64,000 nt of DNA from Neobacillus cucumis (lineage in GTDB: Bacteria > Bacillota > Bacilli > Bacillales_B > DSM-18226). Under the pieces are notes generated by a model that had not been told where the DNA came from, ran no database searches, and worked only from the letters and a program-made list of their open reading frames with translations. Location of the stretch: assembly GCF_023715505.1 (NCBI RefSeq), contig NZ_JAMBOH010000025.1, positions 5,850 through 69,849 on the forward strand. The letters run 5' to 3'. How positions within the stretch are numbered: the stretch's first letter is position 1; each line of letters starts with the position of its first letter. The position numbers and the translations under genes were made by a program. Below are positions 23,565-39,620 of the stretch, piece after piece.

Positions 23565-24296
23565 ATGGAAGATAGACAAAAGAAACCTCTATCGTTATCG
23601 TCAAATTCTGTGCGTTTGGGCGTGTTATTGGCTTTGGTTGGAGGATTTCTAGATGCTTACACTTTCATAAGTCGAGATGGTGTATTTGCCAATGCACAAA
23701 CCGGAAACATGGTACTATTAGCGGTCAAAGCAGCGAACCGAGACTGGATTGGGATGTTACTTTACATTCCGCCCATCCTTGCTTTTATATTAGGCGTTTT
23801 GATTTCGGAAATTTTCAAGACTCCCCGTGTTAGACATTTAGTATATAGCTATAGACGGTCCATCCTTATACTAGAATGTCTCGTGTTGATTTTTGTTGGG
23901 TTGCTGCCGAGCAGTGTCCCGAACATGGTCGTGACGGTGTCCATTGCGTTTGTGTCTTCCCTGCAAATTTCTACCTTTAATAAATTAGACAGGTGGGCGT
24001 ATAACTCAACGATGACTACGGGAAATTTAAGGACGGCCACACAAGCTGCTTATTTAGCTATTAAAGAACATAACCAAGAAGCTAAAAGGCAATTTCATGA
24101 ATTCTTTTTCATCATTCTATCCTTTATATTCGGTGCTTTAGCCGGAACTTTTTCCACAACGTATATAGGTAATCGAGCAATCTGGTTTGCATCAGGTATT
24201 CTGATTGTCGCGCTTATCCTATATCATAGAGACAGGGGATTTATAAGAAAACAGGAAGCTTGTCTTAAAGATCATATGAAACTAGCACAGGGATGA
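23565..24296 (+). CDS. DUF1275 (YoaK) family membrane protein
   Basis: 243 residues, six predicted helices. The signature GGFLDAYTFISRDGVFANAQTGN near residue 26-48 and the second half LQISTFNKLDRWAYNSTMTTGNLR are diagnostic of DUF1275/YoaK. The family is widespread, of unknown function; transport is suspected. AAGGAG precedes the ATG. It is a single gene followed by two hairpins. Confidence 0.92.
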   Translation: MEDRQKKPLSLSSNSVRLGVLLALVGGFLDAYTFISRDGVFANAQTGNMVLLAVKAANRDWIGMLLYIPPILAFILGVLISEIFKTPRVRHLVYSYRRSILILECLVLIFVGLLPSSVPNMVVTVSIAFVSSLQISTFNKLDRWAYNSTMTTGNLRTATQAAYLAIKEHNQEAKRQFHEFFFIILSFIFGALAGTFSTTYIGNRAIWFASGILIVALILYHRDRGFIRKQEACLKDHMKLAQG

Positions 24297-24308
24297 ACAA
24301 TTTTGTTG

Positions 24309-24333
24309 GCCTGTCCCCTACCTGGGGACAGGC
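24309..24333 (+). terminator. GC-rich hairpin after the DUF1275 gene
   Basis: GCCTGTCCCC-TACCT-GGGGACAGGC, perfect 10-bp stem but with only a short T run (ACTCTTATT) after it. Confidence 0.65.
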
Positions 24334-24430
24334 ACTCTTATTGATGTCATTTATTAACGACAGTCAACCAAGAAAAAATAATGCCCACTTTCAATTGAAA
24401 AATAGTTTAAAGTAAATATAGTTTACCGAA

Positions 24431-24462
24431 AAAAACGGAGAATTTGTTGATTCTCCGTTTTT
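24431..24462. terminator. Bidirectional intrinsic terminator
   Basis: AAAAACGGAGAAT-TTGTTG-ATTCTCCGTTTTT; it separates the rightward DUF1275 gene from the leftward small gene at 24529. Confidence 0.9.
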
Positions 24463-24528
24463 AATATGAATAATATTGTATATGACTTTAAAATAATCAC
24501 TTTTATCTAAATCAATCTCAGATTAAAT

Positions 24529-24699
24529 CTACCCTGCTTTTTCTACTAAACAGTTTTTTTCCCATTTTTCATATTCTTTACCTGCCGTCCAGCTTAACCA
24601 CGATACTAGAATTCTTAATTCATTTGGTCCGACATACCAGTATTCCCAACGCTTTTTTTCTGAATTTTGATAAATTCCGGTTTTGTAGACATATTTCAT
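24529..24699 (-). CDS. 56-residue conserved-looking small protein, function unknown
   Basis: MKYVYKTGIYQNSEKKRWEY, then WYVGPNELRILVSWLSWT and a charged tail. It is rich in Trp and Tyr. A strong AAGGAGTG lies upstream of the ATG at 24699 and a terminator follows at 24462, so it is very probably a real gene. I do not recognise the family. Confidence 0.7.
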   Translation of the reverse strand: MKYVYKTGIYQNSEKKRWEYWYVGPNELRILVSWLSWTAGKEYEKWEKNCLVEKAG

Positions 24700-25184
24700 G
24701 TGAAATCACTCCTTGTATCAAACCTATTATTTTAATAATTTTCGGAAGATTATAAAATAAATATTCTCCAATTATCCAAAAACTCCTGCTAAAGCGCTAT
24801 CATTTAACCATACCTTTAGTTTTATTTTTACGAATGATTTTTAATTAAGGAATCAATTGTGGTCGTCCAGTTAATTGGATATTAGATTAAAACCCATATC
24901 CTTTGACAGGATCCACTACGAACTTGATTCTCTTCTAAAACGAAGCTAAACCTTTTTTGGCAAATAAAAAAGTTTGGCTTCGTTTTATGAATATAAAAAG
25001 AGCCTAAATATACAAGTAGTCTATAAAAACTTGCATAATGAGGCTCTTTTTAATTATTCCTTGTTTCAGTAAAGCCCGTTAGCATTCCTGTAGATCGTTA
25101 TTTTTCGACTTTGAAAAAATAGAGCTCCTCAGTAAAATGAGTATAGACACCACTCTAACTCCCAACTTTAGGAGGAACCCTACT
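24700..25184. other. Intergenic region with two long hairpins before the IS110 remnant
   Basis: 24937-24986 forms a long stem (AAAACGAAGCtAAACCTTTTTT with its near complement). 24995-25051 has AAAAAGAGCCT paired with AGGCTCTTTTT across 35 bases. Both look like terminators. The second one may be the left boundary region of the IS110 copy. No gene is seen. Confidence 0.5.
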
Positions 25185-26106
25185 ATGAAGTTTAAAATGC
25201 AAAACAAACAAAATCAACTAATAGAAAGAATTTCCGTTAAACATCTTGTTGTCGGCGTGATATAGCTCAACAATTTCATGTCGCCAGAGCCGTAAATTTC
25301 CGTGGAATTGTTGTCGGAGAACCTCTAACGTTCAAAAATAATGAAGAAGGATTTACTAGTTTACTAAAATGGATAATAAATCTTCAAAGATTAAACAACT
25401 TGGATCAAGCAATTGTTGGGATGGAACCAACTGGACACTACTGGATCAATCTTTCAAAATGGCTCCTTAAACAAAATATTGAGGTAGTAACGGTAAACCC
25501 ACATTTAGTAAAAAGGAATAAAGAAAACCGTGATAATACTCAATCAAAAAGTGATAAAAAGGATGCCTTAGTCATCGCTGATATGGTAAAGAACGGTTAC
25601 TACTCCGAGGTTAGATACACATCAGAAACATTTGAAAAGCTAAGGGTCCTTATGTCAAACCGTGATGTAGTAGTGAAACGCCTAGTAAGTTCTATCAATC
25701 AATTAAATCGTTGGGTAGATATTGTCTTTCCTGAACTCCGTCAAGTCTTTAAAGACATTACTGCAAAAGGAGCAATCGCAACCCTTCGCCTATTTCCAAC
25801 TCCTATGGAATTGGCCACCAAGCAGACTCATGAGATTATTATTGGCTGGAAATCTCTTATGAAGAGGCAACCTGGATTAAAAAAGGCCCAATTACTCCTC
25901 CAGGTAGCCAAGAACTCCATCGGTTCAAGGCAAGCACTAGATGCTTATAAATTTCATTTGGAGCAATTACTTGAAGAATATGATTTAGCAGTAACACAAC
26001 TCGAGAAAGTTGAAAAACAAGTTACCGATGTATTATATAAAATTCCTTATGCTAAAAAGCTGCTTACCATTAAAGGAATTAGTGAAATATCTCTAGCCAA
26101 GGACAA
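25185..26106 (+). pseudogene. IS110-family transposase, frameshifted and 3'-truncated
   Basis: Starts MKFKMQNKQNQLIERISVKH with AGGAGG upstream. Near 25259 one G is missing: VVGV then DIAQQFHVARAV continues in another frame. The body has the IS110 DEDD catalytic region (IVGMEPTGHYWINLSKWLL, then KSDKKDALVIADMVKNG) and the coiled linker (LLEEYDLAVTQLEKVEKQV). It ends at KKLLTIKGISEISLAKDN, just where the C-terminal transposase_20 domain with its catalytic serine should begin. The rest is lost, replaced by an unrelated inverted-repeat element. A different subgroup from the IS110 copies at 30-32 kb. Confidence 0.88.
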
Positions 26107-26138
26107 TTGAAAAATAAATCTATACAATTCGAATGTTG

Positions 26139-26429
26139 GCTTATTCGCAGGATTTCAAATATGTACGGAGTACCAGATTACTTAAACATAAGGGCTCTGA
26201 CCCATTCCGATAGCAAAACTGGCCTCAGGAATGAAAGGGCAAATGACTTGTTGAGACTTGGGAGGGAAAGCCTCCAGGGGCGGCGTGGAGCATGTACATT
26301 ATATGGTAAAATATGGAGTACAATTATACTCCTCTATTTCACTATGCCTCCGCGAAGCTTTTAATGGATCTGGCCCCTCATATTCTATCATTATGAAATA
26401 TCAAGGTACATGAAATCCTGCGAATAAGC
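26139..26429. mobile_element. MITE-like element, 291 bp with 19-bp terminal inverted repeats
   Basis: GCTTATTCGCAGGATTTCA at 26139-26157 is repeated exactly in inverted orientation at 26411-26429. A second imperfect inverted pair lies inside (AGGGCTCTGACCCATT at about 26190 against its near complement at about 26360). No gene fits inside. The element marks the point at which the IS110 transposase is cut off. A non-autonomous derivative of a DNA transposon is the best reading; no clear target duplication was found. Confidence 0.6.
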
Positions 26430-26562
26430 GAGTATCGGGAGAAAATCGTATTAAACTGAGGGAGTTTAAGGAGAATATTTCACAAACTTACTTTTGAAAT
26501 AAGAAAAATGGCTACCTTCATCTTGAAGAGTCACTAACTGAAAGTTGGAGAAGAAGTAAAAA

Positions 26563-27011
26563 TTATCTATTAATTTTTCGAACAAACCTCATATTAATCA
26601 CAAGAACTATAAAAATGATTGGATATAAGGTCCAGAATACCACAAATTCCATCCATTATAGTAAAAGTATTCAGTTTGCAAGGAAATCCATTCAAAAATA
26701 ATTGAAAAAATAGACCAAGATAAGATATATATTATTTTCTTTAAAATCCTTTCTTCTAAAGGATAATAATTGAGAAACAATAAGCTAATTGAAGGGAAGT
26801 ATAAAATGATTCCTAAAAGTCCTAACCATTGAAATCCTTTTTCAAAATAACCATAAAGATGATAATGCATATCTAATATAAAATCAGTCGTTATACCGTA
26901 GGCATAAGCAAAGAAACATGTGGCGTAAATTTCTATTTTATTAATCCTTTTCGGAATATAAAATGCAATGATGTTCAAGATGATAAAAATTATATATATA
27001 AAAATCCACAC
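26563..27011 (-). pseudogene. CBO0543-family membrane protein with a C-terminal frameshift
   Basis: From 27011 the frame encodes 134 residues, four to five membrane helices, ending YYNGWNLWYSGPYIQSFL and a TAG at 26607. One T added to the T5 run (A5 at 26611-26615 on the plus strand) restores SFFIVLVINMRFVRKINR and a stop at 26563, which is the expected family ending after the W-YS-P motif. So either a real one-base deletion or a homopolymer read error. Function of the family unknown. Confidence 0.7.
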
Positions 27012-27026
27012 ATTAATTTGTCCTCC

Positions 27027-27500
27027 TTATATCTGCTTGACTTTTGCAACACCTAATGCAAAGTGATTCCAAAGAACATTCTCAATAAACTCAGATTGTG
27101 ATTCTTCACAATCAATAATTAGAATAATCTCGGAATGCCTTCCTTTTAATAATCTTTTTTTCTTCTTTAAGACCACTTCGGTAAAAAGTCTAATTGCTAG
27201 TCCAAGCACAAACCCTATAAAAGCACCAATTAACCCCCAATAAATTGGACCCCATGATAATTTAAACCCAATACTCACACCAATAACTGAAAAGGCTGTG
27301 GCAAGAGCTGCTCCTATATCAATCAGCGTTGTACCATCAGAGCGATGAAGGGAATCAAAAACTTTCCGCTCCTCTTTTCGATTATCAAGTGGGACAGCAA
27401 ATATACTTTCTTTTGTAATCCCTTCTTTTTCTAAAGTGGAGATTGCCATTTCTAAATAGGAAGTAGTTTCAAAAGTTGAAAAAAGTTGCAAATTAATCAC
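27027..27500 (-). CDS. Hypothetical protein with two central membrane helices
   Basis: 157 residues. The first 60 form a soluble start (TTSYLEMAISTLEKEGITKE); residues 65-110 hold two Gly/Ala-rich helices (IDIGAALATAFSVIGVSIGF and IYWGLIGAFIGFVLGLAI); the rest is soluble (KKKKRLLKG, then IILIIDCEESQSEFIENVL). The layout resembles stress proteins with a ferredoxin-like fold split by a glycine-zipper hairpin. Its GTG start overlaps the stop of the upstream gene by four bases (GTGA), so the two are coupled. Family not recognised. Confidence 0.7.
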   Translation of the reverse strand: MINLQLFSTFETTSYLEMAISTLEKEGITKESIFAVPLDNRKEERKVFDSLHRSDGTTLIDIGAALATAFSVIGVSIGFKLSWGPIYWGLIGAFIGFVLGLAIRLFTEVVLKKKKRLLKGRHSEIILIIDCEESQSEFIENVLWNHFALGVAKVKQI

Positions 27501-28285
27501 ATCACCTTTTGTCCTTTTAGTATTTTGAAACCTGTTGACTGATAGTTTTCTTGTAAATGAGCCCTTAATTCTTTTTCGAAAAGCTTATTATTTTCAACTG
27601 TATTAATATATGAGTCATACAGCGCAAAACCATAGTGTGATGGAATAAATAATAGCCATTCTGGTTTTAGCACAGAGGTAGCTTCTTTCACCTTGCCTAA
27701 AACCAAAAGTGAAACTGCCTCTTGGACGTGTGAATAATAATAAAAGATGACTAACCAACCGATAACAAACAAGGCAGTCAAAAGCCTGTGTATATAGAGT
27801 TGTCCAAGACCAGGGATAAACAATGACCAAATAATGGAGAGAACTGGGTTCCTTTTATCTAGATAGTTAATTTCTACTGCTCCCAAAGCGAATGAATTAA
27901 AACGATGGTCCTCACGTTCCGCTAAAAGATAAACTCTATTCATATCTATCGTCGTTCGGTAACTATCCCAAATCCCAAAAATGTAAACAGGGATATACAT
28001 GAGAAGCCACCTAGTATTTAATACATCTTTAGCCATGTCTATATTACCTTGAAATGAGTAAATCATTGAAAGATTGACATGGGCATTAATGTTAACAACA
28101 ACCTCCCAGAGAAATAAAGCATATCCTCTAAGGTATTTTGACAAGAGTAAATGTCCAAAACCAGGGAATGCAGCGGACCACCATGCGATGATGTATGGGT
28201 TCCTTAAATGAAGCTGAGTTGTACCAAGAGTGCTTACATGTGCTTTATATCTTCTAGCGGTATTATCATTTGTATAGTTGTTCAT
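27497..28285 (-). CDS. Membrane protein with two copies of a PGFG/PGLG module, function unknown
   Basis: 262 residues. Two modules of about 85 residues are visible: WWSAAFPGFGHLLLSKYLRG with NTRWLLMYIPVYIFGIWDSY, and IIWSLFIPGLGQLYIHRLLT with KPEWLLFIPSHYGFALYDSY. Each has two or three helices and the same Trp-Leu / Asp-Ser-Tyr ending. A single-module homologue is encoded at 32676-33146. The module recalls the TM2-like families but I cannot name it. Upstream partner of the coupled gene at 27027. Confidence 0.75.
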   Translation of the reverse strand: MNNYTNDNTARRYKAHVSTLGTTQLHLRNPYIIAWWSAAFPGFGHLLLSKYLRGYALFLWEVVVNINAHVNLSMIYSFQGNIDMAKDVLNTRWLLMYIPVYIFGIWDSYRTTIDMNRVYLLAEREDHRFNSFALGAVEINYLDKRNPVLSIIWSLFIPGLGQLYIHRLLTALFVIGWLVIFYYYSHVQEAVSLLVLGKVKEATSVLKPEWLLFIPSHYGFALYDSYINTVENNKLFEKELRAHLQENYQSTGFKILKGQKVM

Positions 28286-28426
28286 AAAGCCACCTTAAGG
28301 AAACAATTAATTTTCCATAGTATTCCACAAATCGGTTTATTTATCCTGTTTACTACTAATAGAACTAATCTTCCACGTTTGTTGAATAAGAAAAAAGCGT
28401 CTCCACTTGTTGTAGAAACGCTGCTG

Positions 28427-28956
28427 TTACCTAATATCATACTTATCTTTACATTTACCTGTAACAACAAAGTGAGGACTGCCATCCTTACGGTTAAAGA
28501 CTCTCCAGTATTCACTGTATTCATCGTCCTCTGAAGTGTCTGGGAAAACCTCTAATACAAAACCTTCCGCTAAAAAGACCTTTAATCCTCCAACCTCATC
28601 TGAGTCAATGCTTTTAACAATATTGTTTTCTTGTATGCTTTCCAAAAAGTAGTTAATACGCTCATCAAATCTATTGTTCCTTGAATATCCCAATCAAAGT
28701 CTTCATTATCTTCATTCCATCCTGACCTAGGAGAATAGAAATCCCTTGAAGCTACTAAAATCTTATTTTCTTTGATAATTCTCCACGAACATTGAATATG
28801 TAATGCGTATTCTGCTGTTTCTTCAGTTTCACCCTTCCTTGATACTGAAATCATTTCGCCAAATCCAAGCCAAAAGAGACTAGATGCTCTTCCCGCATTC
28901 CTTAATTTCAAACCCACTAGTTTACCTATTTCGGAACTATTGCAACTTTCATACAC
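28427..28956 (-). pseudogene. Frameshifted hypothetical protein
   Basis: Starts at 28956 with CAGGAGAC upstream: MYESCNSSEIGKLVGLKLRN, then SWRIIKENKILVASRDFYSP and DFDWDIQGT. Near 28675 the frame is lost; the other frame continues RFDERINYFLESIQENNIV, LAEGFVLEVFPDT and ends at 28427. Adding one A in GGAACAATAG rejoins them into an about 176-residue protein. The family is not one I can name; the composition (beta strands, acidic) suggests a small cytoplasmic immunity- or stress-type protein, which is only a guess. Confidence 0.7.
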
Positions 28957-28978
28957 GTCTCCTGTAGGGATTTATTAT

Positions 28979-29021
28979 TTAAGTTAAGTACCCGTTTGTT
29001 TAAGTACAATATTTCACAAAG
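28979..29021. repeat. Dispersed repeat copy 1
   Basis: Minus strand reads CTTTGTGAAATATTGTACTT then AAACAAACGGGTACTTAAC. Related copies lie at 40646-40693, 46822-46862 and 63350-63400. The shared core is TTTGTGAA..AATGTACTTAA, followed by an A/C-rich AAACGGGTGC-like part. Confidence 0.65.
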
Positions 29022-29120
29022 AAAAAAATAAAGCTTTAAGATAAAATAGGTATTACCCTTTTTGAAGTAATACCCCTTTACCTAATGTAGTTTATTATTT
29101 ATTAAATTCTCCTAAAACAT

Positions 29121-29519
29121 TCACAAAGGGAGATTTAGTTGCCACGAAACCCCGAAGCGGTCATTTACCCAACCAAACTTTTTACTGAAACCATAATTGT
29201 TTAAAGGCATAAGTGCTTTTCCACCTTCATGAAGTTTTTCATAAAGATTTTCAAGTTCTTCTTCAGTACTACAAGTAACAAAGTTTGAGAAAGAAGGTGT
29301 AAAAGAGAATTGATGTTTTACATAACTGTCAATACACATAAATTCTTGCCCTTTCAAGGTAAAAGTAGCCTGCATTACAGTGCCTTCTGGTCCAGCTTCA
29401 TTAGCCCCATATCTAACAATGTTTGTAGTTTGAGAATCTTCAAAGATGGATGTATAAAAATTCATCGCTTCTTCTGCGTTGCCATCTTGAAACATTAAAA
29501 ATGGTGTTACCTTTTCCAT
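29121..29519 (-). CDS. VOC/PhnB-like family protein
   Basis: 132 residues from ATG 29519, chosen because GGAGGCG lies just upstream (the open frame extends to 29639 without a start signal). MEKVTPFLMFQDGNAEEAMNFY, EGTVMQATFTLKGQEFMC, FVTCSTEEELENLYEKL and GWVNDRFGVSWQLNLP are characteristic of the PhnB/3-demethylubiquinone-9 methyltransferase-like branch of the vicinal oxygen chelate superfamily. Members are mostly uncharacterised; some are metal-dependent lyases or resistance proteins. Single gene. Confidence 0.88.
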   Translation of the reverse strand: MEKVTPFLMFQDGNAEEAMNFYTSIFEDSQTTNIVRYGANEAGPEGTVMQATFTLKGQEFMCIDSYVKHQFSFTPSFSNFVTCSTEEELENLYEKLHEGGKALMPLNNYGFSKKFGWVNDRFGVSWQLNLPL

Positions 29520-29704
29520 TTTTATGCGCCTCCTAATTTTATGTACTAAATTTATTATAGTTGATTTTCTTGCTGAACTAAACTGCTTCGTTGGCACAAT
29601 AAGAAGACGGAATAACCGTGGACATCCCATTTTTAACATAAGCCCCCATTAGCTGATCCATTAATTCATCAGGTTAAATTCTTCTTTTTCTTCAATCATT
29701 TTAA

Positions 29705-29995
29705 TTAATTTGAAAAATGGCCTAAAACGGACCTGTATTTGCTCTTCAAAGTTACAACAAAGGTATATTGGAAGGACATGTCGATAGATTTGTCGCGATC
29801 AATGAGAAGTTTCAGCTCCCTCATAACCATTGGGATAATGTGCTCATCCACGCCGTTGGAGAAAGAGATTTCTATGTTTGCCGTTTTGATCGTGCAAGCG
29901 TTATTAGCAGAGGTTGATGATGAAGAAGATGTATATGAAATTTTGTTCTCGGAATGAAATGTAACGGGGACAATTGTAAGTTTTTGTTGCGGCAT
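29705..29995 (-). CDS. Small protein, possibly IS66 accessory-like
   Basis: 96 residues from an ATG with GGGAGGTG upstream. MPQQKLTIVPVTFHSENK, a Ser-rich linker, then CTIKTANIEISFSNGVDEHI and IPMVMRELKLL. The last part resembles the C-terminus of IS66 TnpA proteins (I-V-IEV-x-GFDxxLLxxVxxxL), but this is a weak likeness. It lies next to IS110 remnants in a mobile-element-rich stretch. Confidence 0.4.
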   Translation of the reverse strand: MPQQKLTIVPVTFHSENKISYTSSSSSTSANNACTIKTANIEISFSNGVDEHIIPMVMRELKLLIDRDKSIDMSFQYTFVVTLKSKYRSVLGHFSN

Positions 29996-30082
29996 TTGAA
30001 AAGCACCTCCCTTAAATTGATACATTCATAGTACCAGGAAGCGCTGTGTGTTTATATGCGTTGTTTGATTGGGGGCTAACGA

Positions 30083-30910
30083 AGTATTATTGAGGAGCGT
30101 GCCAGACAACGTAATCGAATCCAAAAGGTGTTAGAAGGTGCGAACATTAAGTTGGGGTCAGTTGTTTCAGATGTGTTGGGTGTTTCAGCACGAGATATGC
30201 TTGATGCCATTGCCGATGGTGAAGAGGATCCTGAAAAACTAGCAAACTTCGCTCGACGCACCATGAAAAAGAAGAAAGAAGAACTGGAAGTCGCTCTTAA
30301 AGGTTATATTAATTCTCATCAATGTCTTATGTTGAAAACCATTTTAAAGCATATTGATTTTTTGACAGAACAAATTGAGATGCTGGATCAAGAAGTGGCG
30401 AAAAGAGTAAGCACCCATAAAGAAGAAATCAAAAGATTAGATTCCATTCCTGGAATAGCTACTAGAATGGCTGAACAAATATTATCCGAAATCGGGACTG
30501 ATGTTAAAAAACAATTCCCAACTGCAGCTCATATGTGTTCCTGGGCAGGTTTGGTTCCGGGGCAAAACGAGAGTGTTGGGAAAAGAAAATCAGCCAAAAC
30601 CAAAAAAGGAAACAAATATTTGAGATCCGCATTAACGGAAGCAGCTCATTCAGTAAGAGGATCCAAAAACTATCTCGGAGCACTGTATAGACGTACAGCA
30701 TCCCGAAAAGGTAAGAAACGTGCTGGTATTGTAGTCGCTCACGCAATGTTACGTATCTGTTATTATCTCTTAACCCGAAAAGAAATGTATGTAGACTTAG
30801 GCGAAGACTACTTTGATAAGCATAGACAACAGTCTATCGTTCGGCATTCACTGAGGCGACTCGAAAGTTTAGGATATACAGTTACAATAGAAGAACCTAA
30901 AGCATCTTAA
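30083..30910 (+). pseudogene. IS110-family transposase, 5'-truncated
   Basis: The frame enters at IIEERARQRNRIQKVLEG and continues through the linker to the C-terminal domain: RLDSIPGIATRMAEQILSE, CSWAGLVPGQNESVGKRKS and KGNKYLRSALTEAAHS, ending EEPKAS. It corresponds to about residues 143-405 of the full-length relative at 31306, so the N-terminal DEDD domain and left end are missing. The C-terminal half, with the conserved serine in the GSK/NES region, is intact. An inactive remnant. Confidence 0.88.
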
Positions 30911-31126
30911 TCCAGTCATTTTCTAAACCACAGATCCATGACATTTGGCGCTCTCACCTTTTTAAAGAATCGAATGAGCTGCGTCCTCTTTAGTATTGCC
31001 TTTTTCTCTGTGTTACAGAAGTTTATTTTCATGGTAGACATCCATGCCGCTTTCGCGGCACCATCAAATGAATGAAAATGTTTTTATACTAGTCTAGCTC
31101 CCCTTTCTCCTGTCAATCCTGATAAT

Positions 31127-31273
31127 AGGCTGGCGAAGGAAGGTCGATCAACTATGGTGCTTTTAAGCCCGCATGGTAGACTGATTCACTACGACCAGGT
31201 GCACCACAAAATGTTGCTCTCAAGTGAGAAGCACGCAGGATAGATTAATCTTATATGGTTGTTGCACCAGCCT
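31127..31273 (+). ncRNA. Putative IS110 bridge RNA (left-end structured RNA)
   Basis: Directly upstream of the transposase start, in the position where IS110-group elements encode a bridge RNA. AGGCTGG (31127) can pair with CCAGCCT (31267-31273), closing the whole segment. Inside, GGTCG (31142) pairs with CGACC (31192), enclosing a 45-base loop region, followed by the palindrome GGTGCACC (31198). The same blocks in the same order occur at 63911-64000, while the loop bases differ between the two, as expected for guide loops. The RNA itself is inferred. Confidence 0.6.
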
Positions 31274-31305
31274 TAATTTACTTCAGCCTAGGAAGGATTT
31301 TACTA

Positions 31306-32511
31306 ATGGATGTTGTATATAATCACTGTTGTGGACTCGATGTTCACAAAAAGAGTATTACCGCTTGCGCGATTACTCCAAAAGGAAAAGAAATTCAAAC
31401 ATTTGGTACGATGACACATGAACTATTCCAATTGGTGGATTGGATTAAAAACAAACGATGTACTCATGTTGCCATGGAAAGTACAGGTGTGTATTGGAAG
31501 CCAATCTACAATCTACTAGAACTTGAGGAATTACAACCGATGGTTGTAAATGCTGCTCATATCAAGGCTGTTCCCGGACGCAAAACCGATGTTAAAGATG
31601 CAGAATGGATTGCGAAATTGTTGCGCCACGGTCTTCTTCAACATAGTTATATCCCTAATAGGGAACAAAGAGAATTACGTGAGTTAGTTCGATACCGCCG
31701 TAGTCTCATTGAAGAAAGGGCTAGGGAGATTAGTAGAATCCAAAAAGTTCTAGAAGGTGCTAATATTAAACTTTCTTCAGTTGCCACTGACATTATGGGT
31801 GTCTCCGGACGAGCAATGATTGAAGCCATTATTAACGGTGTAAATGATCCAAAAACATTATCAAGCCTTGCTAAAAAAAGATTAAAAAATAAAAAGGATG
31901 ATTTAGAACGTGCGTTAGTAGGATCCATTGGACCCCATCAAAAAATGATGTTAAAAACTCAACTCTCACACATTGACTTTATGGATCAACAGATTGAATT
32001 GTTAAGTGAAGAAGTCCTGCAACGGATGCAACCTTATGAAGAAGCTATTGAATTACTTGATTCTATCCCTGGAATTGGCAGAAGCCACGCCGAACAACTT
32101 TTGGCTGAAATAGGAATTGGCATGGATATTGCAAATCAGTTTCCTTCAGCTCCTCATTTATGTTCCTGGGCAAGTATGGTTCCAGGTAACAATGAAAGTG
32201 CTGGAAAAAAGAAGTCCGGAAAAACAAGAAAAGGTAATAAAAAATTACGAGCAGCACTCGTTGAAGCAGCACATTCAGCAGCTAAAACAAAAAACACCTA
32301 CCTATCTTCCCAATACCAACGTTTGGCGGCACGAGTTGGTAAAAAACGCGCAGCAGTTGCGGTTGGACATACCATATTAACAATTGCATATCACATGTTA
32401 AAGAGAAGAGTACCCTATATTGAGTTGGGCGCAGATTACTTTGACCGAAGAAAGAAAGAAAGAAATCGTGATCAAGCAATCTATCAAACGATTAGAGACT
32501 CTTGGTTGTAA
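31306..32511 (+). CDS. IS110-family transposase with a slipped 3' end
   Basis: 401 residues from ATG 31306 (GGAAGG upstream; frame open to 31255). The N-terminal DEDD domain is complete (CGLDVHKKSITACAI, AMESTGVYWKPIYNLLE, GRKTDVKDAEWIAKLLRHG), as is the C-terminal domain (LLDSIPGIGRSHAEQLLAE, CSWASMVPGNNESAGKKKS, KGNKKLRAALVEAAHS). At 32450-32465 there are four GAAA repeats; with three, the frame would end IVIKQSIKRLETLGCKVTVE..., matching the relative at 30083-30910, with a stop at 32536. As written the last 15 residues differ. May still be active, since the lesion is past the catalytic serine. Confidence 0.9.
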   Translation: MDVVYNHCCGLDVHKKSITACAITPKGKEIQTFGTMTHELFQLVDWIKNKRCTHVAMESTGVYWKPIYNLLELEELQPMVVNAAHIKAVPGRKTDVKDAEWIAKLLRHGLLQHSYIPNREQRELRELVRYRRSLIEERAREISRIQKVLEGANIKLSSVATDIMGVSGRAMIEAIINGVNDPKTLSSLAKKRLKNKKDDLERALVGSIGPHQKMMLKTQLSHIDFMDQQIELLSEEVLQRMQPYEEAIELLDSIPGIGRSHAEQLLAEIGIGMDIANQFPSAPHLCSWASMVPGNNESAGKKKSGKTRKGNKKLRAALVEAAHSAAKTKNTYLSSQYQRLAARVGKKRAAVAVGHTILTIAYHMLKRRVPYIELGADYFDRRKKERNRDQAIYQTIRDSWL

Positions 32512-32675
32512 AGTAACTGTTGAAGCAATAGCGTAATTATGGTCAAAAAAATATAGCTAAAATTCAAGACCCGGATCTTAAAAAAAAAATGGATCTTATA
32601 GGGTTTAGTTTCGTATTGCCAAAATGCCCTTTTAGGTTACTATTTTTCAGGATAGTTGAAGAGCAGAAAGTTCCT

Positions 32676-33146
32676 TTAAGTCTTGTAGATAAAAACTAAT
32701 TTATAAATAATAAACCCTATCAAAAGCCCAGGGGCTAAAGAAAGCATTGGTAAAAAAACAGGACCTATTAGCACTCCAGATACTTTTAATGAGGTTGAAT
32801 ATATTAAGCCTATTGTAATAAAGAATGCTCCAAATACAAAAGGTATGTAAGAAAAGCAATTCACTTCTCCATCTGCATTATGGTATGCATCCCACATGGC
32901 AAACATATATAAACAAGGGTAAAACATAAGCCATTGAAAGTTTGTAACTTCAATGGCTTTCTGTATTTGTCCTGTAAATGAATATAGAATAGCTAAATTG
33001 AAGTTGCTTAGGATATTTACAAGAATCTCCAAAAAAATGAATACACATCCTTTAAATAAACTTCCATTTAGAAACTGACCGAATCCTGGTAAAGCTATAC
33101 TCCATAATAAAGCCTCATGTTTTTTAGGCTTTCTAAAATCCTTCAC
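32676..33146 (-). CDS. Membrane protein, single PGFG module, homologue of the gene at 27497
   Basis: 156 residues from a GTG start. LLWSIALPGFGQFLNGSLFKG, FIFLEILVNILSNFNLAILY and NFQWLMFYPCLYMFAMWDAY align with the first module of the protein at 27497-28285. The second half (three helices, no repeat) is different. It lies 10 bases after the stop of a DUF3231 gene, so the two are probably co-transcribed. Function unknown. Confidence 0.7.
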   Translation of the reverse strand: MKDFRKPKKHEALLWSIALPGFGQFLNGSLFKGCVFIFLEILVNILSNFNLAILYSFTGQIQKAIEVTNFQWLMFYPCLYMFAMWDAYHNADGEVNCFSYIPFVFGAFFITIGLIYSTSLKVSGVLIGPVFLPMLSLAPGLLIGFIIYKLVFIYKT

Positions 33147-33156
33147 TTTGTATCAC

Positions 33157-34164
33157 TCAATTCAACATTTGATTGCGTTCTTCCATTTGAGGTGGTTCTT
33201 CCATCCAACCATTTTTAATCATTATTTTTGCACCTTTATGAGCATATTCAAATATATCTTTCATAAAAATAGTCATTTTAACTGGTAAATCATTTCGCAA
33301 ACTAAAAGCGGTACCCAATGAACCACTTCCCATAGAAAAACTACAAAAAAGGCTTATGCAATACATCATCAATTTATCAGAAAATGGTGCTAATGTTGAT
33401 CGGGTTGCATTACCACCTGATGTTTGAGGAGTTTGTATACCGTTTTGAAGTAAGGTTTCACTTAATTCCTTTACAATACTTTTAGCAAGTTCAGCTCCAT
33501 CATTAAAATAGTTTTTAACTTCTCCTTCATTTGCACATTGAGCAAACCCTGTAATCATTTGAAGCCCAAAGATATTTGATTCAATTGAATGATGAAGTTG
33601 AGCAACTTCCACTGTATTTAATGAACGTTTTTCGCTAAATGGATTAATTGAGAGTCCACCCAAGTAGTTGTTATCTTTAACAAATTCAACTGACTTTGGC
33701 ATTGAAACATGAGGAGATTTAACAAGCAACCCCTTTTCAAGCAAATATTGTGTGCAAAGGTTGTAATACTTTTGAGTAATCGCAGTTAGCTCTTTAAAAA
33801 TCAGTACAATATCTTCTCGATAAGTCATAGTTATATTTAATGAGTGAAGCCCCATACTAATTTCTTTTAAAAGGCGAACAAACATGATGTCAAAACCATT
33901 ATCATATAACTTCGGCACCTCCTTGTTAACATCTTGAGCAGTAAACCCAACTGGTGTTACAGCCCCTTCATTTTGTAAAGTTTCTGTGATTATACCAACA
34001 TAATTGTCAATCTCCCCATATAAATTAGTCATAATATCCTTGGCTTTTTCGTCATCAGCTTTCTCTATAAGATATTCTAATATACGTAAAATCATTGTCT
34101 TCTCTTGATATGTAAGCCATAATGTGCCTAATTCAGATGACGTAATTGCTGATTTTTCTGGCAT
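33157..34164 (-). CDS. DUF3231 family protein
   Basis: 335 residues in two similar halves of about 165 residues, each an all-helical bundle. The first half shows LGTLWLTYQEKTMILRILEYL and GFTAQDVNKEVPKLYDN; the second HHSIESNIFGLQMITGFAQC and a closing FSMGSGSLGTAFSLRND. These are features of DUF3231, a family of Bacillus proteins often linked to spores. A perfect AGGAGG precedes the ATG. Confidence 0.88.
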   Translation of the reverse strand: MPEKSAITSSELGTLWLTYQEKTMILRILEYLIEKADDEKAKDIMTNLYGEIDNYVGIITETLQNEGAVTPVGFTAQDVNKEVPKLYDNGFDIMFVRLLKEISMGLHSLNITMTYREDIVLIFKELTAITQKYYNLCTQYLLEKGLLVKSPHVSMPKSVEFVKDNNYLGGLSINPFSEKRSLNTVEVAQLHHSIESNIFGLQMITGFAQCANEGEVKNYFNDGAELAKSIVKELSETLLQNGIQTPQTSGGNATRSTLAPFSDKLMMYCISLFCSFSMGSGSLGTAFSLRNDLPVKMTIFMKDIFEYAHKGAKIMIKNGWMEEPPQMEERNQMLN

Positions 34165-34448
34165 ATAAATCTCCTCCTAAAATTTTCTTATTTTAGGTTG
34201 AGCATAACATGGAATTCTAATTCAGTATTTTTTTCACAAGCTGCACAAAACTATTTTGGGGGAGGTCTAGCATCAGCCATGCGAACTGGATTTTCATATT
34301 AGTGAGTTTTACTCATCCACATCTAACCTCACAATTTGGTGATATACAGATTTCTATGTATTGCAGGTTTTGACCCGTAATAACGATAGGTAACCTACTG
34401 AGTGTAAAACTCTTGCGAGTTCCATTCTCTTTTCAGCTTTCCCTCGTC

Positions 34449-34486
34449 CCACACCGTGCGTGAGACTTTCATCTCACACGGCGCTC
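34449..34486 (-). ncRNA. Domain V of the outer group II intron
   Basis: Minus strand GAGCGCCGTGTGAGATGAAA then GTCTCACGCACGGTG. The stem-GAAA-loop form with the AGC-like base is the catalytic heart of group II introns. It lies about 75 bases after the stop of the reverse-transcriptase gene, as usual. Confidence 0.8.
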
Positions 34487-34558
34487 CCTCGAAAATTATG
34501 TTTTCTTACTCATTCAATCATGATTTTTCCTCTGGACATTGTGTTTTCTGTTTTGTAT

Positions 34559-35652
34559 TTAGAACAACGTTAGTTGTTCATATCTAACTTCATTGTTGAA
34601 AATATCTAGATTATTTTCTTTTTCATTGATACGAATGTTCCCCACTAACACTCTTAATTTATCCAGTTTTTCAATGGCTTTTTTATTCAGATTTAGTCTT
34701 TTCAGGAGAGCCCTTATTGTTTCTGTTTTTGTTGCATGTACCAGTTTGTGAACGTCTGATTTGATTAACGTTAAATTTTGGTAGCTGTCATCATGTGTTA
34801 TGTGCCACGGTATTTTATGATGACAACGCATGTCTAATAAATCTAACTGCTCGCCAGTTACCGAACATTTTCCGTTCTGAGCCACATAAATGGACAAGCG
34901 ATTGTCGTTGTATTCTACCGTCGCTCTACCTATCAGTATAGGGTGTTCTCGTAACCATTTAAGTTCTGTTTCGGATACGTTTGTTAGGTTCTTATGAATT
35001 AACTTTCGTCCTTCTTCAGTGTACTTGTTGATGGCATTACGCTTCATCATTGGATTTTTATTTCTAACATCGGCGAGATGAAGTATTGGACTTTTCATGA
35101 GATATCGCATGTATTTGTTCTCTCGTTTAGTATACTTCGCTATCCCTTTGTCTTTGCCCCTATATTCCCCATATCTAGTAAAACCATTTGTATATTTGTC
35201 ATTCGGCTTGCTTTTTGGAAATCGGTTGTACATTTGTTTCTGCAGATCGTAACCTACTCTTTTCAAGTCTAGGTTCACATGCGTAGCGATTTCATAATAA
35301 TTATGTATCCCAATTATCATGCTGTTGTACTTTGCGATTTCCTTAATGCAGTTTGAGCTGTTGGGGGTTTTTTGTATCTTTTTAATTTGCTTAGCTAGTT
35401 TCGCTTTCGCTGTTTTTATTGCTTTTTGGGACATGTGTGTTTCCGCCACATACTTTGTTGCAGCTGTTTTCGTTTTGCCTTTTTTAGTTGCTTTAAGCGT
35501 GAACCCTAAGAATTCACTCTTTTGCTTCTTTAAGTTTGTTACCTTTGATTTCTCTTTTGAGATTGGCAACTTTAGGCGCTCTTCTAGCCACATTTGCACA
35601 GATTTAAATATTTTCTCTGCGTTGCTTCGTGTGGCTGTGAAGATTTTGAGGC
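34559..35652 (-). pseudogene. Outer intron reverse transcriptase, C-terminal part (maturase and HNH)
   Basis: This is the second exon of the split gene: LKIFTATRSNAEKIFKSVQ follows the YVDD motif of the 5' part. Then come the maturase (X) region and, near the end, an HNH-type endonuclease: CSVTGEQLDLLDMRCHHKIP with the following NLTLIKSDVHKLVH. Joined to 37517-38417 the product would be 664 residues in frame. Without splicing of the inner intron this part would not be translated from the proper start. Confidence 0.82.
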
Positions 35653-35689
35653 AAGTAGACCACTGGAACCTCCCCAGTAGCCCCTCTCA

Positions 35690-35723
35690 GAACCGGACGT
35701 GAACCTCTCAGCTCATCCGGCTC
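35690..35723 (-). ncRNA. Domain V of the inner group II intron
   Basis: Minus strand GAGCCGGATGAGCTGAGAGG then TTCACGTCCGGTTC: a classic 34-base domain V with the conserved AGC replaced by GAGCC...GGTTC closing pairs. It is directly after the inner RT gene stop (35727). Confidence 0.88.
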
Positions 35724-35726
35724 CCA

Positions 35727-36970
35727 TTATTCAGCCGTAGGCTTAATACCCATTTCCCAGTGTTTAAAGAGTTTGGGAATCTGATTTGCAATTCTACCTA
35801 AGAAATATTCAGCTCTTTTCTTGTGACGAGCCAACCTTTTATATTTCTTCCTCGCCCACATTATTAAAGCTTTATTGATATGCCTTAACGATAAGTACAT
35901 TTCGGATTTGTAGAACTTGCCATAGAAGTTAATCCAGCCTATGATTTTTGAGTTAAACATATTTGATAGGTCCGTAAGGTCCTTTTCAGCTTTCAGCTGT
36001 AATTTCCAGTCCCTTACTTTTTGCCGAATTGATTTCTTGATTTGTTACTAATCGCAGGTGTAAAGTTAATAAAATGCTTACCCCATCTATTCTTAGAACG
36101 TCTTGGTCTGAATGTATATCCCAGAAAATCAAATGAAATATTTTCGTGATTTTCTTTCCTATCATCATCTTTACAATATACAATTCTTGTCTTAGTTGGA
36201 TGTAGTTCAAGGTTACATTCATTCATCCTATTGTTTAATGATTCAAGTAATCATATTGCCTCATCTTCTGATTTGCAGTGAATGACTGCATCATCTGCAT
36301 ATCTAGCAAATGGATTATTTCGATGGTTAATAGTCATCCATTTATCAAATGTGTAGTGTAAAAATAGGTTCGCAAGAACCGGACTTATGACTCCACCTTG
36401 CGGTGTGCCAGACATACGTTCTTTTACACCTTCTTTAGTTTGAAAAGGTGCCTTTAGCCATCTTTCAATATATAGCTTTATCCATTTACTATTTGTATGC
36501 TTTTCCACTGCTTTCATTAATAATCCATGATCAATGTTGTCGAATAAGCCTTTAATATCAAATTCTAGAACCCAATTGTATTTCCAACACCTTTTACGGG
36601 TTACTTCCAATGCTTGGATGGGACTTTTATTAGGTCTATAACCATAAGAGTCCACATGAAAGTAAGGTTCCACAGAGGGTTCAAAATACAGTTTCACAAC
36701 CATTTGTGCAATTCTATCTGTAACAGTAGGAATTCCTAGTGTCCTAGTGCCGCCAGCTTTCTTTGGGATATCTACCGCTTTAACTGCTGGTGGAAAGTAA
36801 CTACCTGAGGACATTCTGTTCCACAGTTTATAGAGATTGTTCTTTAGGTTCACTTCGAATTCTTCTATTGACTCTTGATCAATTCCAGCTGATCCCTTGT
36901 TTGCTTTCACTCTAAGAAAGGCTTCATAAACCACCTTTTTAGATATTGCATACGGCTTTGTTTTATTCAT
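35727..36970 (-). pseudogene. Inner intron reverse transcriptase/maturase, broken by a stop and a frameshift
   Basis: From 36970: MNKTKPYAISKKVVYEAFLR, KANKGSAGIDQESIEEFE, GIPTVTDRIAQMVVKLYFEP, SYGYRPNKSPIQALEVTR, GTPQGGVISPVLANLFLH and the active site FARYADDAVIHCKSEDEA. Then TGA at 36251 interrupts; the same frame resumes LLESLNNRMNECNLELHPTK to about 36045, where a one-base shift leads to IRQKVRDWKLQLKAEKD, IIGWINFYGKFYKSEMY and the family ending MGIKPTAE. Both lesions are small (CGA to TGA is likely). Without an active protein the inner intron can move or splice only with help from elsewhere. Confidence 0.88.
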
Positions 36971-37516
36971 AAGTTCCTCCCATTAAGATGGTTGACTTGC
37001 TTATAAAACTGAATAACATAACCCCTTTGCTCCACCTCCGTTAGGAGGCTTCTTTGCTACTACGAGTTATTCCGCCCCTATACATGGCATTGGTACTCTG
37101 ATTCTTGTGGGTCTTCCACTTGAATTTCTCCCTTAACATCCATGTCGTAGGTTCCCACGTTCCACACTCAAGCCTATATTAAGTTCACGCCGCCTTTATA
37201 CCGGTCACCGAACGGACAGTAAACAGGTTTCCTCCGAACTTATCCTGAGTTAACGACTCCCCCTCAGTTTTGATGACATCCCTACGCTTTCGATACTTCC
37301 TCAGCGGTTCATTGGTTTTCGTCTCCTTAATATGTACCTGACAAAGTCATGCTTTGCCTTTTCCTTAACGCTCAATACCATAGCTTTTGACTACGGCACC
37401 TTAAGGTGGTTTGCAATCTCTACCTGTATAGCGATTGCGAGAGGCCAACTCTCATCTTAAGTGCAGCATAGCTTCCTAATGTGTTTACGCACACTTTGGT
37501 TGCTTTCGTGGCACAC

Positions 37517-38417
37517 AATCATCTACGTAACGTACAATGTACATTGGCTTCAACTTTGTTTTCTTCAAGGCTCTGTTGTCTCTACCTGTTCTACCTTCTT
37601 TGTTTTTATATTTGAAGCTATGTCGGGTTTTCGCTGTTTCCCATTGGTCACTTATCCACCAGTCAAACTCATTTAGGTTGACGTTGGCTAATAAGGGACT
37701 GAGTATCCCCCCTTGAGGGGTTCCTTTTGTTGGGTTGACGATTGTCCCATCTTCCAATTGTATTGGTGCCTTTAATATCTTTCGTAGTATAACAAGTAGC
37801 TGTTTGTCTTGTATCCCGAGCGTCCATAATTGACGCATCAGTTTCACATGATTTACTTCATCGAAGAAACCTTGATTGTCCACATCAACCACATACATTA
37901 GGTTTGTTTGGTTTATCTTGAAGTTTGCATCTGCGATAGCGTGTTCTGCACTTCTGTTCGGTCTAGAACCGTAGCTTCTAGTGTTAAATTTAGCTTCACA
38001 GATTGGTTCCAAGACTTGCAATATACATTGTTGGATGAGTCTGTCCCAAAGCGATGGTATTCCGAGCAGTCTCGTTTTTCCATTTGGTTTTGGAATTTCC
38101 TTCCTGCGAACTTTGCTTGGTTGGTAGTTGTTAAAGCGATCTTCTATTTTCTTTAGAAGTTGGTCTTGGGGCATCCGTTCAATCGTCTCAATAGTTATTC
38201 TATCCACCGAAGGTGTGTAACTTCCTTTGTTTCGCTTAATATTTCTGTAAGCAAGAAGAATGTTATCCTTTGAAGTGATAATTCTCATGAGATGTTTAAA
38301 CTTTTTCCCTTCGTTAGACTTTTTGTACAATTCATCAAACACTGCTTGCATACCATAGTATTCTGCATGCCTGTTTTTATTGTCCTTGAGTATCCTGTCC
38401 TCAGATTTTTCATTCAT
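37517..38417 (-). pseudogene. Outer intron reverse transcriptase, N-terminal part up to YVDD
   Basis: Starts MNEKSEDRILKDNKNRHAEY. Contains RT blocks: RNIKRNKGSYTPSVDRITIE, RRKEIPKPNGKTRLLGIPSLW, YGSRPNRSAEHAIADANFK, VDVDNQGFFDEVNHVKLM, GTPQGGILSPLLANVNLNEFD and KLKPMYIVRYVDD. After YVDD the frame runs into the inner intron and stops ten codons later. The gene is otherwise intact, so the whole interruption is the inner intron. Confidence 0.88.
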
Positions 38418-39620
38418 GGTCTATCACCTTCCTTCACGAGAATTTAGGTGACCTTTTGAGTCTCACCAGAATCCATGCAAGGATTGAATGATAGATATTC
38501 CTTCCATAATTTTCGACTTGTGGCTGTTCCTCCTTCTCTCATTACAAGAACCGTCAACGGTTGTCCACTACTTTCATCGGTCATTAAACAGTTCCCTCGT
38601 TTACACGTTTCCTGTTTAACTTGAAGTGCCCCTCGCTCTATCGAGCAACGTTGACCGCTTCCGACGTTCCTTTCCGATTATCATTGTTTCAACTTAGGTG
38701 TCTCCTTTTCCCCGTGTCTAGCTCCGCAGCCTGTAACTGCGTTAGGATTTACTCTCCGAATGAAAATTTCAATCCTTTAGACAAGCGATATTTTCACGCC
38801 CGATTCATTTCTAAATCGTACTTCTGTCGAGGTTTACCTTCGGAGATTCGTCAGCCGTTGGTACGACATTCTCACCATATTTAAACGACAGAGAGTATTC
38901 ACTACAATTCCATTGGGTTTATTACTCCCTTTGGCTTTCGGTTACCTTATCGGCACTTCGGTAGTTTCAACCTTCATTACCCAGCTATGGTTGCCCTAGC
39001 CGACTGCAATCTACTAGAGGTTAGGGTATCTTACTGGAGAAGCTTCAAGGCGTTACCCTATCTTTTCATTCTCTCATCGAAAAAGTTGTTTTCTTTGTAA
39101 CTTTTATTTGAGCTACTCAGAGCCGTTCTCTCCCTATAAAGTTATTAGCCTTATTTTTGAGAACAACGTCTCGCACCATTCAGAAGTTCGTCAGCTTAGC
39201 CTTTTTCTTTTAGGCTTATCCGTATTCTCACCTTATTCATTCAACTCAAGCATCATGAATTACACCACTCCATCGAGTAGGCTTTCGGCAGCCGAACTGC
39301 TACGGTAAATTCTTACGCCTTTTCGCCGAGCTTATAACACTATCATTCTTACTAAATCCAGTGCTATTCGACTAAGAGAGAACCCTTCTGGGCGTTACCC
39401 CGCCATTTGATTCTTCAATATAATCCTTCAGTTCCGAAAGGAACTGTCTAGCCTTTACCTGAGTAATGTAGTCATTCTCAATTTAAGCTAGAAACATTTC
39501 GCACCACTAAACTGCTTCATTAGTTGAATAACTCTGACATATTGCTTACTTTAATCAGTAATATTAACTTAGTCTTAGTGGAACAATAGTTAAAGCTATA
39601 TTCTTGAAAAGGAGTAAAAA

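Follow-up and report, generated by a model that had tools for sequence, protein, structure and literature searches.

Three nested group II introns in Neobacillus cucumis and evidence for an intron lineage that targets the catalytic codons of reverse transcriptases

In Methanosarcina acetivorans, nested group II introns are described that home repeatedly, and at specific sites, into other introns (PMC4424553), E.c.I4 homes into several IS3 transposases, and three copies of c-Ha.de.I1 are inserted at a specific position of other c-Ha.de.I1 copies (PMC3522654). As one intron identification pipeline excludes twintrons (PMC4028801) and another is unable to detect the outer intron (PMC8919778), nested arrangements are probably under-counted. 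Here we describe a nest of three group II introns, designated A, B and C from the outermost inwards, identified with Rfam covariance models and empty sites on the minus strand (34287–39504) of a 64,000 nt stretch of the Neobacillus cucumis genome (contig NZ_JAMBOH010000025.1, positions 5,850 to 69,849 of the forward strand), hereafter the window. All features of the nest are on this strand. Intron C lies within the catalytic YVDD codons of the reverse transcriptase (RT) gene of intron B and, to judge from sequence comparisons, is very probably a member of a lineage that retrohomes into Tyr/Phe-x-Asp-Asp (Y/F-x-D-D) codons of RT genes, for the most part in other group II introns, with a guide tuned to the protein motif.

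Intron C extends from 37516, where it begins GTGTGCC, to 35650, where it ends CTACTTGCC, and the reading frame of the B RT resumes after these 1,867 nt. Excision of 35650–37516 generates GATGATT^TCAAAATC, i.e. GAT GAT T joined to TC AAA ATC TTC, which reads DDFKIF. This predicted junction matches L366, an uninterrupted homologue of B (GATATGCAGATGACT^TCAAAATCTTC), and a second uninterrupted homologue, L367, reads VRYADDFKIFTN at the site. Both have YADDFKIF unbroken at the position of C, and L367 is 65% identical to the B RT before the site and 54% after it. The part of the B RT that precedes C and ends with YVDD (37517–38417, within an open reading frame, 37485–38417, that matches TIGR04416 at 9.5e-76 and PF00078 at 8.6e-23) and the part that follows C and starts (F)KIFTATRSN (34559–35649; TIGR04416 4.2e-15; the 54% identity to L367 is over 337 amino acids) are both open; each scores below the TIGR04416 whole-protein cut-off of 300. 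The core of C is recognised by RF01999 (group-II-D1D4-2; 37336–37453, 116.6 bits, 2e-23, cut-off 36), and domains V and VI by RF00029 (Intron_gpII; 35650–35725, 55.4 bits, cut-off 40). The GTGTG at the 5′ end fits GUGYG. At the 3′ end, where AY is expected, the window copy has GCC, and close relatives have GCC, ACC or ACT.

The same arrangement recurs in many genomes. A scan of GTDB genomes with the N-terminus of the C RT gave 131 confirmed candidates, the best 80 of which were made into loci, and, once loci from plasmids, from Methanosarcinaceae and from additional genomes were included, there were 109 rows with a C-family RT. Eighteen of these were dropped, having no resolvable 5′ end or less than 13 nt of flank, as were 6 duplicates, leaving 85 distinct sites. 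At 54 of these 85 (YxDD sites) the intron is inserted in Y/F-x-D-D codons, behind the first base of the codon that follows. The survey having started from the RT of C itself, this proportion is not a class-wide frequency. All 26 resolved rows with more than 75.6% RT identity to C are at such codons, and the top row at any other site, L024, has 75.1% identity. Among the 54 YxDD sites, an RT profile recognised 50 of the 5′ flanks, of which 46 are in the expected frame. A 3′ end was located at 47 sites (not at the other 7), and RT was recognised in the 3′ flank at 40 of them, always in the frame restored by excision. Both flanks encode RT at 38 sites and at 35 of these the host RT is fully open, which suggests that excision occurs or that the insertions are young. 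When 394 genomes were searched for Y-(GYN codon)-D-D codons fused directly to the 5′ end of the intron, 10 of them had matches, 17 in total, and the reversed control had none.

Members of the C family are present in Bacilli, Clostridia and Methanosarcinaceae, and as single loci in other phyla. In one Methanosarcinaceae genome, all three C-family introns (71% identical to the C RT N-terminus) are at R(Y/F)ADD codons and have the same exon-binding site 1 (EBS1), and C-family introns in two more Methanosarcinaceae genomes (L344, L021) are likewise at R(Y/F)ADD codons; only 3 of the 100 genomes of that search had a match with >70% identity over the whole query. No C-family RT was found at the right distance among at least 208 viral stretches from two viral pattern scans, in which 22 matches ≤700 nt from the end of the stretch are undecidable. 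There are 33 phage records that match the C RT, all with <60% identity (best 59%, H71).

The guide sequences of C are complementary to its target. The target in B, TACGTAGATGATT (37517–37529), consists of intron-binding site 2 (IBS2; 37525–37529), a spacer (37523–37524) and IBS1 (37517–37522). EBS2 (5′-GCGUA, 37283–37287) pairs with IBS2 at 5/5 positions and EBS1 (5′-AGUCGU, 37253–37258) with IBS1 at 6/6. EBS1 is within the 13-nt loop of a hairpin, the stem of which (37263–37267 with 37245–37249) covaries throughout the family, with 5/5 pairs in 71 of 83 hairpins and many compensatory changes. EBS1 was scored in 83 of the 85 introns (53 at YxDD and 30 at other sites; L053 and L356 have no anchor), taking the best of 4 registers, also in the swapped control described below, and for the stem the best of 7 positions. 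In the 30 non-YxDD introns, the loop matches the intron's own IBS1 (mean 5.7/6, ≥5 in 29 of 30) but not the IBS1 of other introns (mean 3.46/6, ≥5 in 12.6% of 848 swaps), confirming the position assigned to EBS1. The sequence GUCAUC, adjoining EBS2, was considered as an alternative EBS1 and rejected, as this stretch is mostly common to relatives with different targets and it is the hairpin loop that fits the IBS1 of its own intron.

EBS1 reads NGUCGU in all 53 scored YxDD introns, and separate inspection of the 54th, L053, gave AGUCGU. The GUCGU core is constant in YxDD introns down to ~64% RT identity, and EBS1 pairs 6/6 at 47 of the 53 sites. There is always a G opposite positions -2 (T in 31, C in 22) and -5 (T in 42, C in 11), the third bases of the two Asp codons, and a T at -1 is opposed by A in 42 of 43 cases. 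EBS2 is GCGUA in 41 and GCAUA in 4 of the 54 introns, and in 46 the scan places G opposite the Tyr codon's third base (-11). Position -8, the third base of the x codon, is outside both pairings, in the spacer, and is unconstrained (A21, G14, C10, T9). In L052, EBS2 is AUGUA, which suits UAYAUG (Tyr-Met), with the Tyr third base still faced by G; in L051, the identical intron pairs less well with TTTAT. Where the intron is at another site, the base opposite a T in IBS1 is A in 35 cases, G in 14 and another base in 2; the introns being related, none of these guide base counts represents independent events.

These pairings suggest a guide that fits a protein motif rather than one DNA sequence, with EBS2 able to accommodate UAYGC (Tyr-Ala) and EBS1 able to accommodate AYGAYU (Asp-Asp plus the next base). 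Tolerance of wobble at the degenerate positions may have been selected. The excised intron, as a ribonucleoprotein, would reverse-splice at YxDD codons, probably at replication forks by analogy with RmInt1-type introns, and splicing at the same borders would then restore the host RT frame. The intron's own motif would mostly be avoided, presumably through -1. In the C-family RTs, DD is followed by Ala or Gly in 49 of 53, the -1 base is G in 50 and A in 3, and such a G is left unpaired with the first A of EBS1. An intron's own YADD motif pairs at 5/6 EBS1 positions but not at -1 in 45 of 52 introns, whereas the actual targets pair at -1 in 46 of 52. Whether such discrimination was selected or is a by-product, it could function in self-avoidance. 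The Desulfosporosinus intron L020, inserted within the YADD codons of another family member's own RT, has a U at the -1 position of EBS1 and so is able to pair with its -1 G.

The RTs that are interrupted are diverse. The 47 outer RTs that were clustered, including one at a near-cognate site (L049), form 41 clusters at 90% identity, 12 at 50% and 4 at 45%. Based on the 150 amino acids before the site, introns identical at 1868/1868 nt in Sporosarcina globispora are in RTs that are 39% alike, and introns identical at 1872/1872 nt in Bacillus sp. OV166 are in RTs that are 42% alike, one inserted at GATGACT and the other at GATGATT. In Paraglaciecola sp. MB-3u-78, identical introns (L051, L052) are inserted in two RTs of the PADLOC family RT_UG4 (1e-81 and 1.7e-84), a non-intron RT family, at FMDD and YMDD motifs, respectively. 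A twintron that formed once and was then inherited or transferred as a unit is consistent with the few pairs that share an outer RT (L006/L008, 98%; L051/L052, 93%; L341/L342, 90% over 81 amino acids), but such a single event is hardly credible given identical introns in such dissimilar RTs, the number of host clusters, the two UG4 hosts and the presence of the L020 intron in a relative's RT. The first-pass annotation of the window had proposed that homing into other introns exploits the catalytic motif as a conserved DNA target, and had suggested a search for introns at YADD or YVDD codons; the first of these is strongly supported by the recurrence in unrelated RTs, the EBS match and the identical copies, and the search produced the 54 sites described above.

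The same annotation suggested that homing could be a strategy against rival introns, and this is not supported. Retention of the intron might reflect the disabling of competing retroelements, or of defence genes based on RTs, and the targets are indeed RTs, including two UG4 RTs that are among the PADLOC defence candidates. Almost all host RTs with two recognised flanks are, however, open in the excision-restored frame, as expected if excision keeps the RTs working or if the insertions are young, making active attack or host defence improbable. The guest intron thus resembles a passenger that is tolerated by its host more than it does a weapon.

A number of observations weigh against a lineage tuned to the catalytic codons. 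Of the 85 sites, 31 are not Y/F-x-D-D, 27 being plainly elsewhere and 4 near-cognate, namely L041, L049 (LADD in an RT), L068 (RADD, with RT downstream only) and L071. When the RT tree is labelled with the near-cognate sites counted as YADD (58 versus 27), the label changes 7 times, with at least 4 of these changes forced by well-supported branches. A single clade for the YADD habit is therefore unsupported, and the habit has been gained or lost more than once; shuffled labels changed 22.9 times on average and none of 500 shuffles had as few as 7 changes. Of the 50 RT matches in 5′ flanks, 4 are out of frame and 8 contain a stop; the RT profile recognised no RT on either flank of L009 and L023, and the match for L365 is weak (7e-4). 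EBS2 has A at -11 in 8 of the 54 introns, 4 with GCATA and 4 in another scan register, and is mis-anchored in L053. Avoidance of self is leaky, with 6 of 52 targets unpaired at -1 and 7 of 52 own motifs that would pair. The predicted single-sequence fold of the 5′ 546 nt of C is only weakly better than shuffled sequences (z -1.74; 5 of 100 shuffles as good). The G residues at degenerate positions could be inherited rather than selected, as the introns are related, and the support as a whole is from sequence.

These points have been considered together as an alternative in which class-D-like introns retarget freely, the dominance of YxDD sites results from a search seeded with C, and the wobble G in EBS1 is simply inherited. 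The 27 introns that are plainly elsewhere, with matching EBS1 sequences, and the repeated changes of label are consistent with this. We nevertheless consider an incidental site doubtful, as GUCGU is unchanged in every scored YxDD intron, the non-degenerate T at -1 is so regularly faced by A, and EBS2 in L051 and L052 is retuned to Tyr-Met (ATGTA) with the G at the Tyr third base kept. Homing directed by the catalytic motif remains the preferred explanation. In its fullest form, towards which we lean with rather less confidence, there would be a cross-domain retroelement lineage with a guide that evolved for synonymous YADD spellings, that parasitises retroelements and at least one non-intron RT family (UG4), that spares its own RT through a single-base check at -1, and that has one line with EBS2 retuned to YMDD.

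At the near-cognate site L041, an intron with a YADD-type guide is inserted (at 6455) at TTATGCAAGGACT, in a CxxC-containing frame that appears HNH-like by eye. A Pfam search with this frame gave no match. This is probably a near-cognate insertion.

In the window, C interrupts an intron that has itself inserted into another. The Rfam matches in the nest are two to D1D4-5, one to D1D4-2 and two to domain V/VI. The D1D4-5 (RF02004) matches, at 39237–39431 (102.2 bits) and 38903–39090 (54.4 bits), belong to separate introns, A and B, respectively. Intron B, split by C, starts at 39176 (GTGCGAGACG) and ends at 34380, and has the features expected of a group II intron, with the RF02004 core, a domain V/VI (RF00029, 34380–34486, 58.5 bits) and RT/maturase sequence in both of the parts separated by C. 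An HNH-like region at the C-terminus of the B RT was read by eye, and a Pfam search of the 34559–35649 part gave no match. Intron B is inserted 328 nt into A, upstream of the expected start of the A RT gene. The outermost intron, A, is a fragment, with a 5′ part (39177–39504) that starts at 39504 with GTGCGAAATG and is 89% identical to an A relative in the Sporosarcina psychrophila plasmid pSP10-266k (L081), the alignment stopping precisely at the B border. The continuation of A beyond B (34287–34379) is 90% identical to L081 6354–6446, and is contiguous there with the 5′ part. Without B, the halves of A adjoin at 6353/6354 in L081 and at 6337/6338 in the Niallia taxi plasmid pMEGANia (L084), and the 5′ exon of A (TATTCAACTAA..GCAGTTTAGT) is common to the window and the S. 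psychrophila plasmid copy. Only ~420 nt of A remain, with homology fading at ~34287, and the downstream RT gene of the uninterrupted relative in L081 is missing from the window. Precise insertion with an empty site in a homologue, as expected of a twintron, is thus documented twice, for C in B (L366, L367) and for B in A (L081, L084). With these empty sites for each of the two insertions, and with C-like introns inside RTs in independent genomes, misassembly was rejected as an explanation.

The first-pass annotation recognised nested introns, which are genuine, but drew two layers rather than three. A and B were merged there into one outer intron (34380–39504), which the two D1D4-5 matches and the adjoining halves in L081 and L084 separate, and the end of C was placed at 35653, 3 nt from the end defined by the L366 junction. 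The B RT frame had been read correctly as running to YVDD, halting at 37517 and resuming past a second intron, and the uninterrupted outer intron that was to be sought was found, for B, as L366 and L367. The same annotation named the absence of a group II fold from the 5′ part of C, and relatives with different borders, as observations that would count against it; a group II covariance model recognises the 5′ part of C, and the borders are unchanged in the closest resolved relatives. The description of C as complete holds for its 5′ end, core and domain V/VI, although its RT gene is broken.

The open N-terminal part of the C RT (36251–36970; TIGR04416 5.4e-95) is ended by an in-frame TGA (36251–36253), and comparison with L005 revealed a 1-nt frameshift near 36037; the family member L001, in contrast, has an open RT of 414 amino acids. 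The history of the window would be insertion of B into A and of C into B, with the 3′ part of A lost and the C RT decayed at some stage. Without an intact maturase of its own, C would need help in trans for splicing in the window. Whether the nest is now dead debris, in which C is unable to splice and the B RT is simply inactivated, appears to us evenly balanced. The disrupted C RT and the truncation of A are consistent with debris, whereas the ribozyme core and domain V/VI of C score above the Rfam cut-offs, the B RT is open on both sides of C, and a maturase could act in trans. Elsewhere in the window (24000–34000), there are stretches that resemble IS110-type transposases on Cytobacillus and Peribacillus plasmids, pointing to a host among the Bacillaceae.

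Several relatives of C have other targets. L026, L057, L058, L073 and L029 are within transposase coding regions, apparently, and mostly as judged by eye, at codons of other catalytic motifs. In the 3′ exons there are matches to rve_2 (2.9e-10) for L026 and to rve (4.7e-9) for L057, and the EBS1 of L026 also has G opposite third bases at -2 and -5. We take the sites in L026 and L057 to be catalytic stretches of IS3-type transposases, and that in L029 to resemble an ISAs1-type motif. In five further cases (L047, L070, L358, L360 and L361), EBS1 is UUUGAC and the 5′ exon ends GTCAAA in otherwise differing contexts; this 5′ exon is perhaps the end of an insertion sequence element.

Most spellings of an RT active site can be matched by a guide that has G at the degenerate codon positions, and we suggest, as a general rule for the occurrence of nested group II introns, that the active site of the RT offers a DNA target shared by rival retroelements. 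This makes mutual parasitism of retroelements, avoidance of self-insertion and the reading of a protein motif by a ribozyme guide accessible to experiment, and is of practical interest where group II introns are to be aimed at degenerate sites.

Known systems share some of these features. Based on the 414-amino-acid open RT of L001, in which no endonuclease (En) domain was recognised, and on its archaeal kin, C may be class D-like; an attempt to assign its class from plasmid matches yielded nothing usable. Class D is among the classes reported for archaeal group II introns (PMC4424553, PMC8919778). RmInt1, of class D/IIB3, has an intron-encoded protein without an En domain, relies on EBS/IBS recognition and homes into mobile elements, as C would, but its target is ISRm2011-2 (PMC5894124, PMC3552965). 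In Ll.LtrB and Ef.PcfG, the intron is also within codons for a conserved motif (HIHN-H, HLHN-H) of a mobile-element enzyme, but that enzyme is a relaxase rather than an RT, and a codon-tolerant guide is not mentioned in the available account (PMC5072309). The T. elongatus TeI4::TeI3 twintrons also have a group II intron within the open reading frame of another, and inner copies that are identical in outer introns that have diverged, but the inner TeI3 has no open reading frame and is located between the first two start codons rather than in catalytic codons (PMC2882425). The targets of E.c.I4 and c-Ha.de.I1 are not described, in the text available, as RT active-site codons (PMC3522654). Within the literature searched, which mostly did not extend to subscription papers, there was no account of an RT active-site guide tuned to synonymous codons, of its spread across bacteria, or of self-discrimination at -1. 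There is a close parallel with the nested introns of Methanosarcina, as the C family would also home repeatedly and site-specifically into other group II introns; in contrast to that account, as cited, the C lineage is also bacterial, with a defined guide and a tolerance of synonymous codons (PMC4424553). Nested homing into group II introns is already known, and it is the cross-domain lineage, the codon-tolerant guide and the self-discrimination at -1 that, judged against the available accounts, appear to be new.

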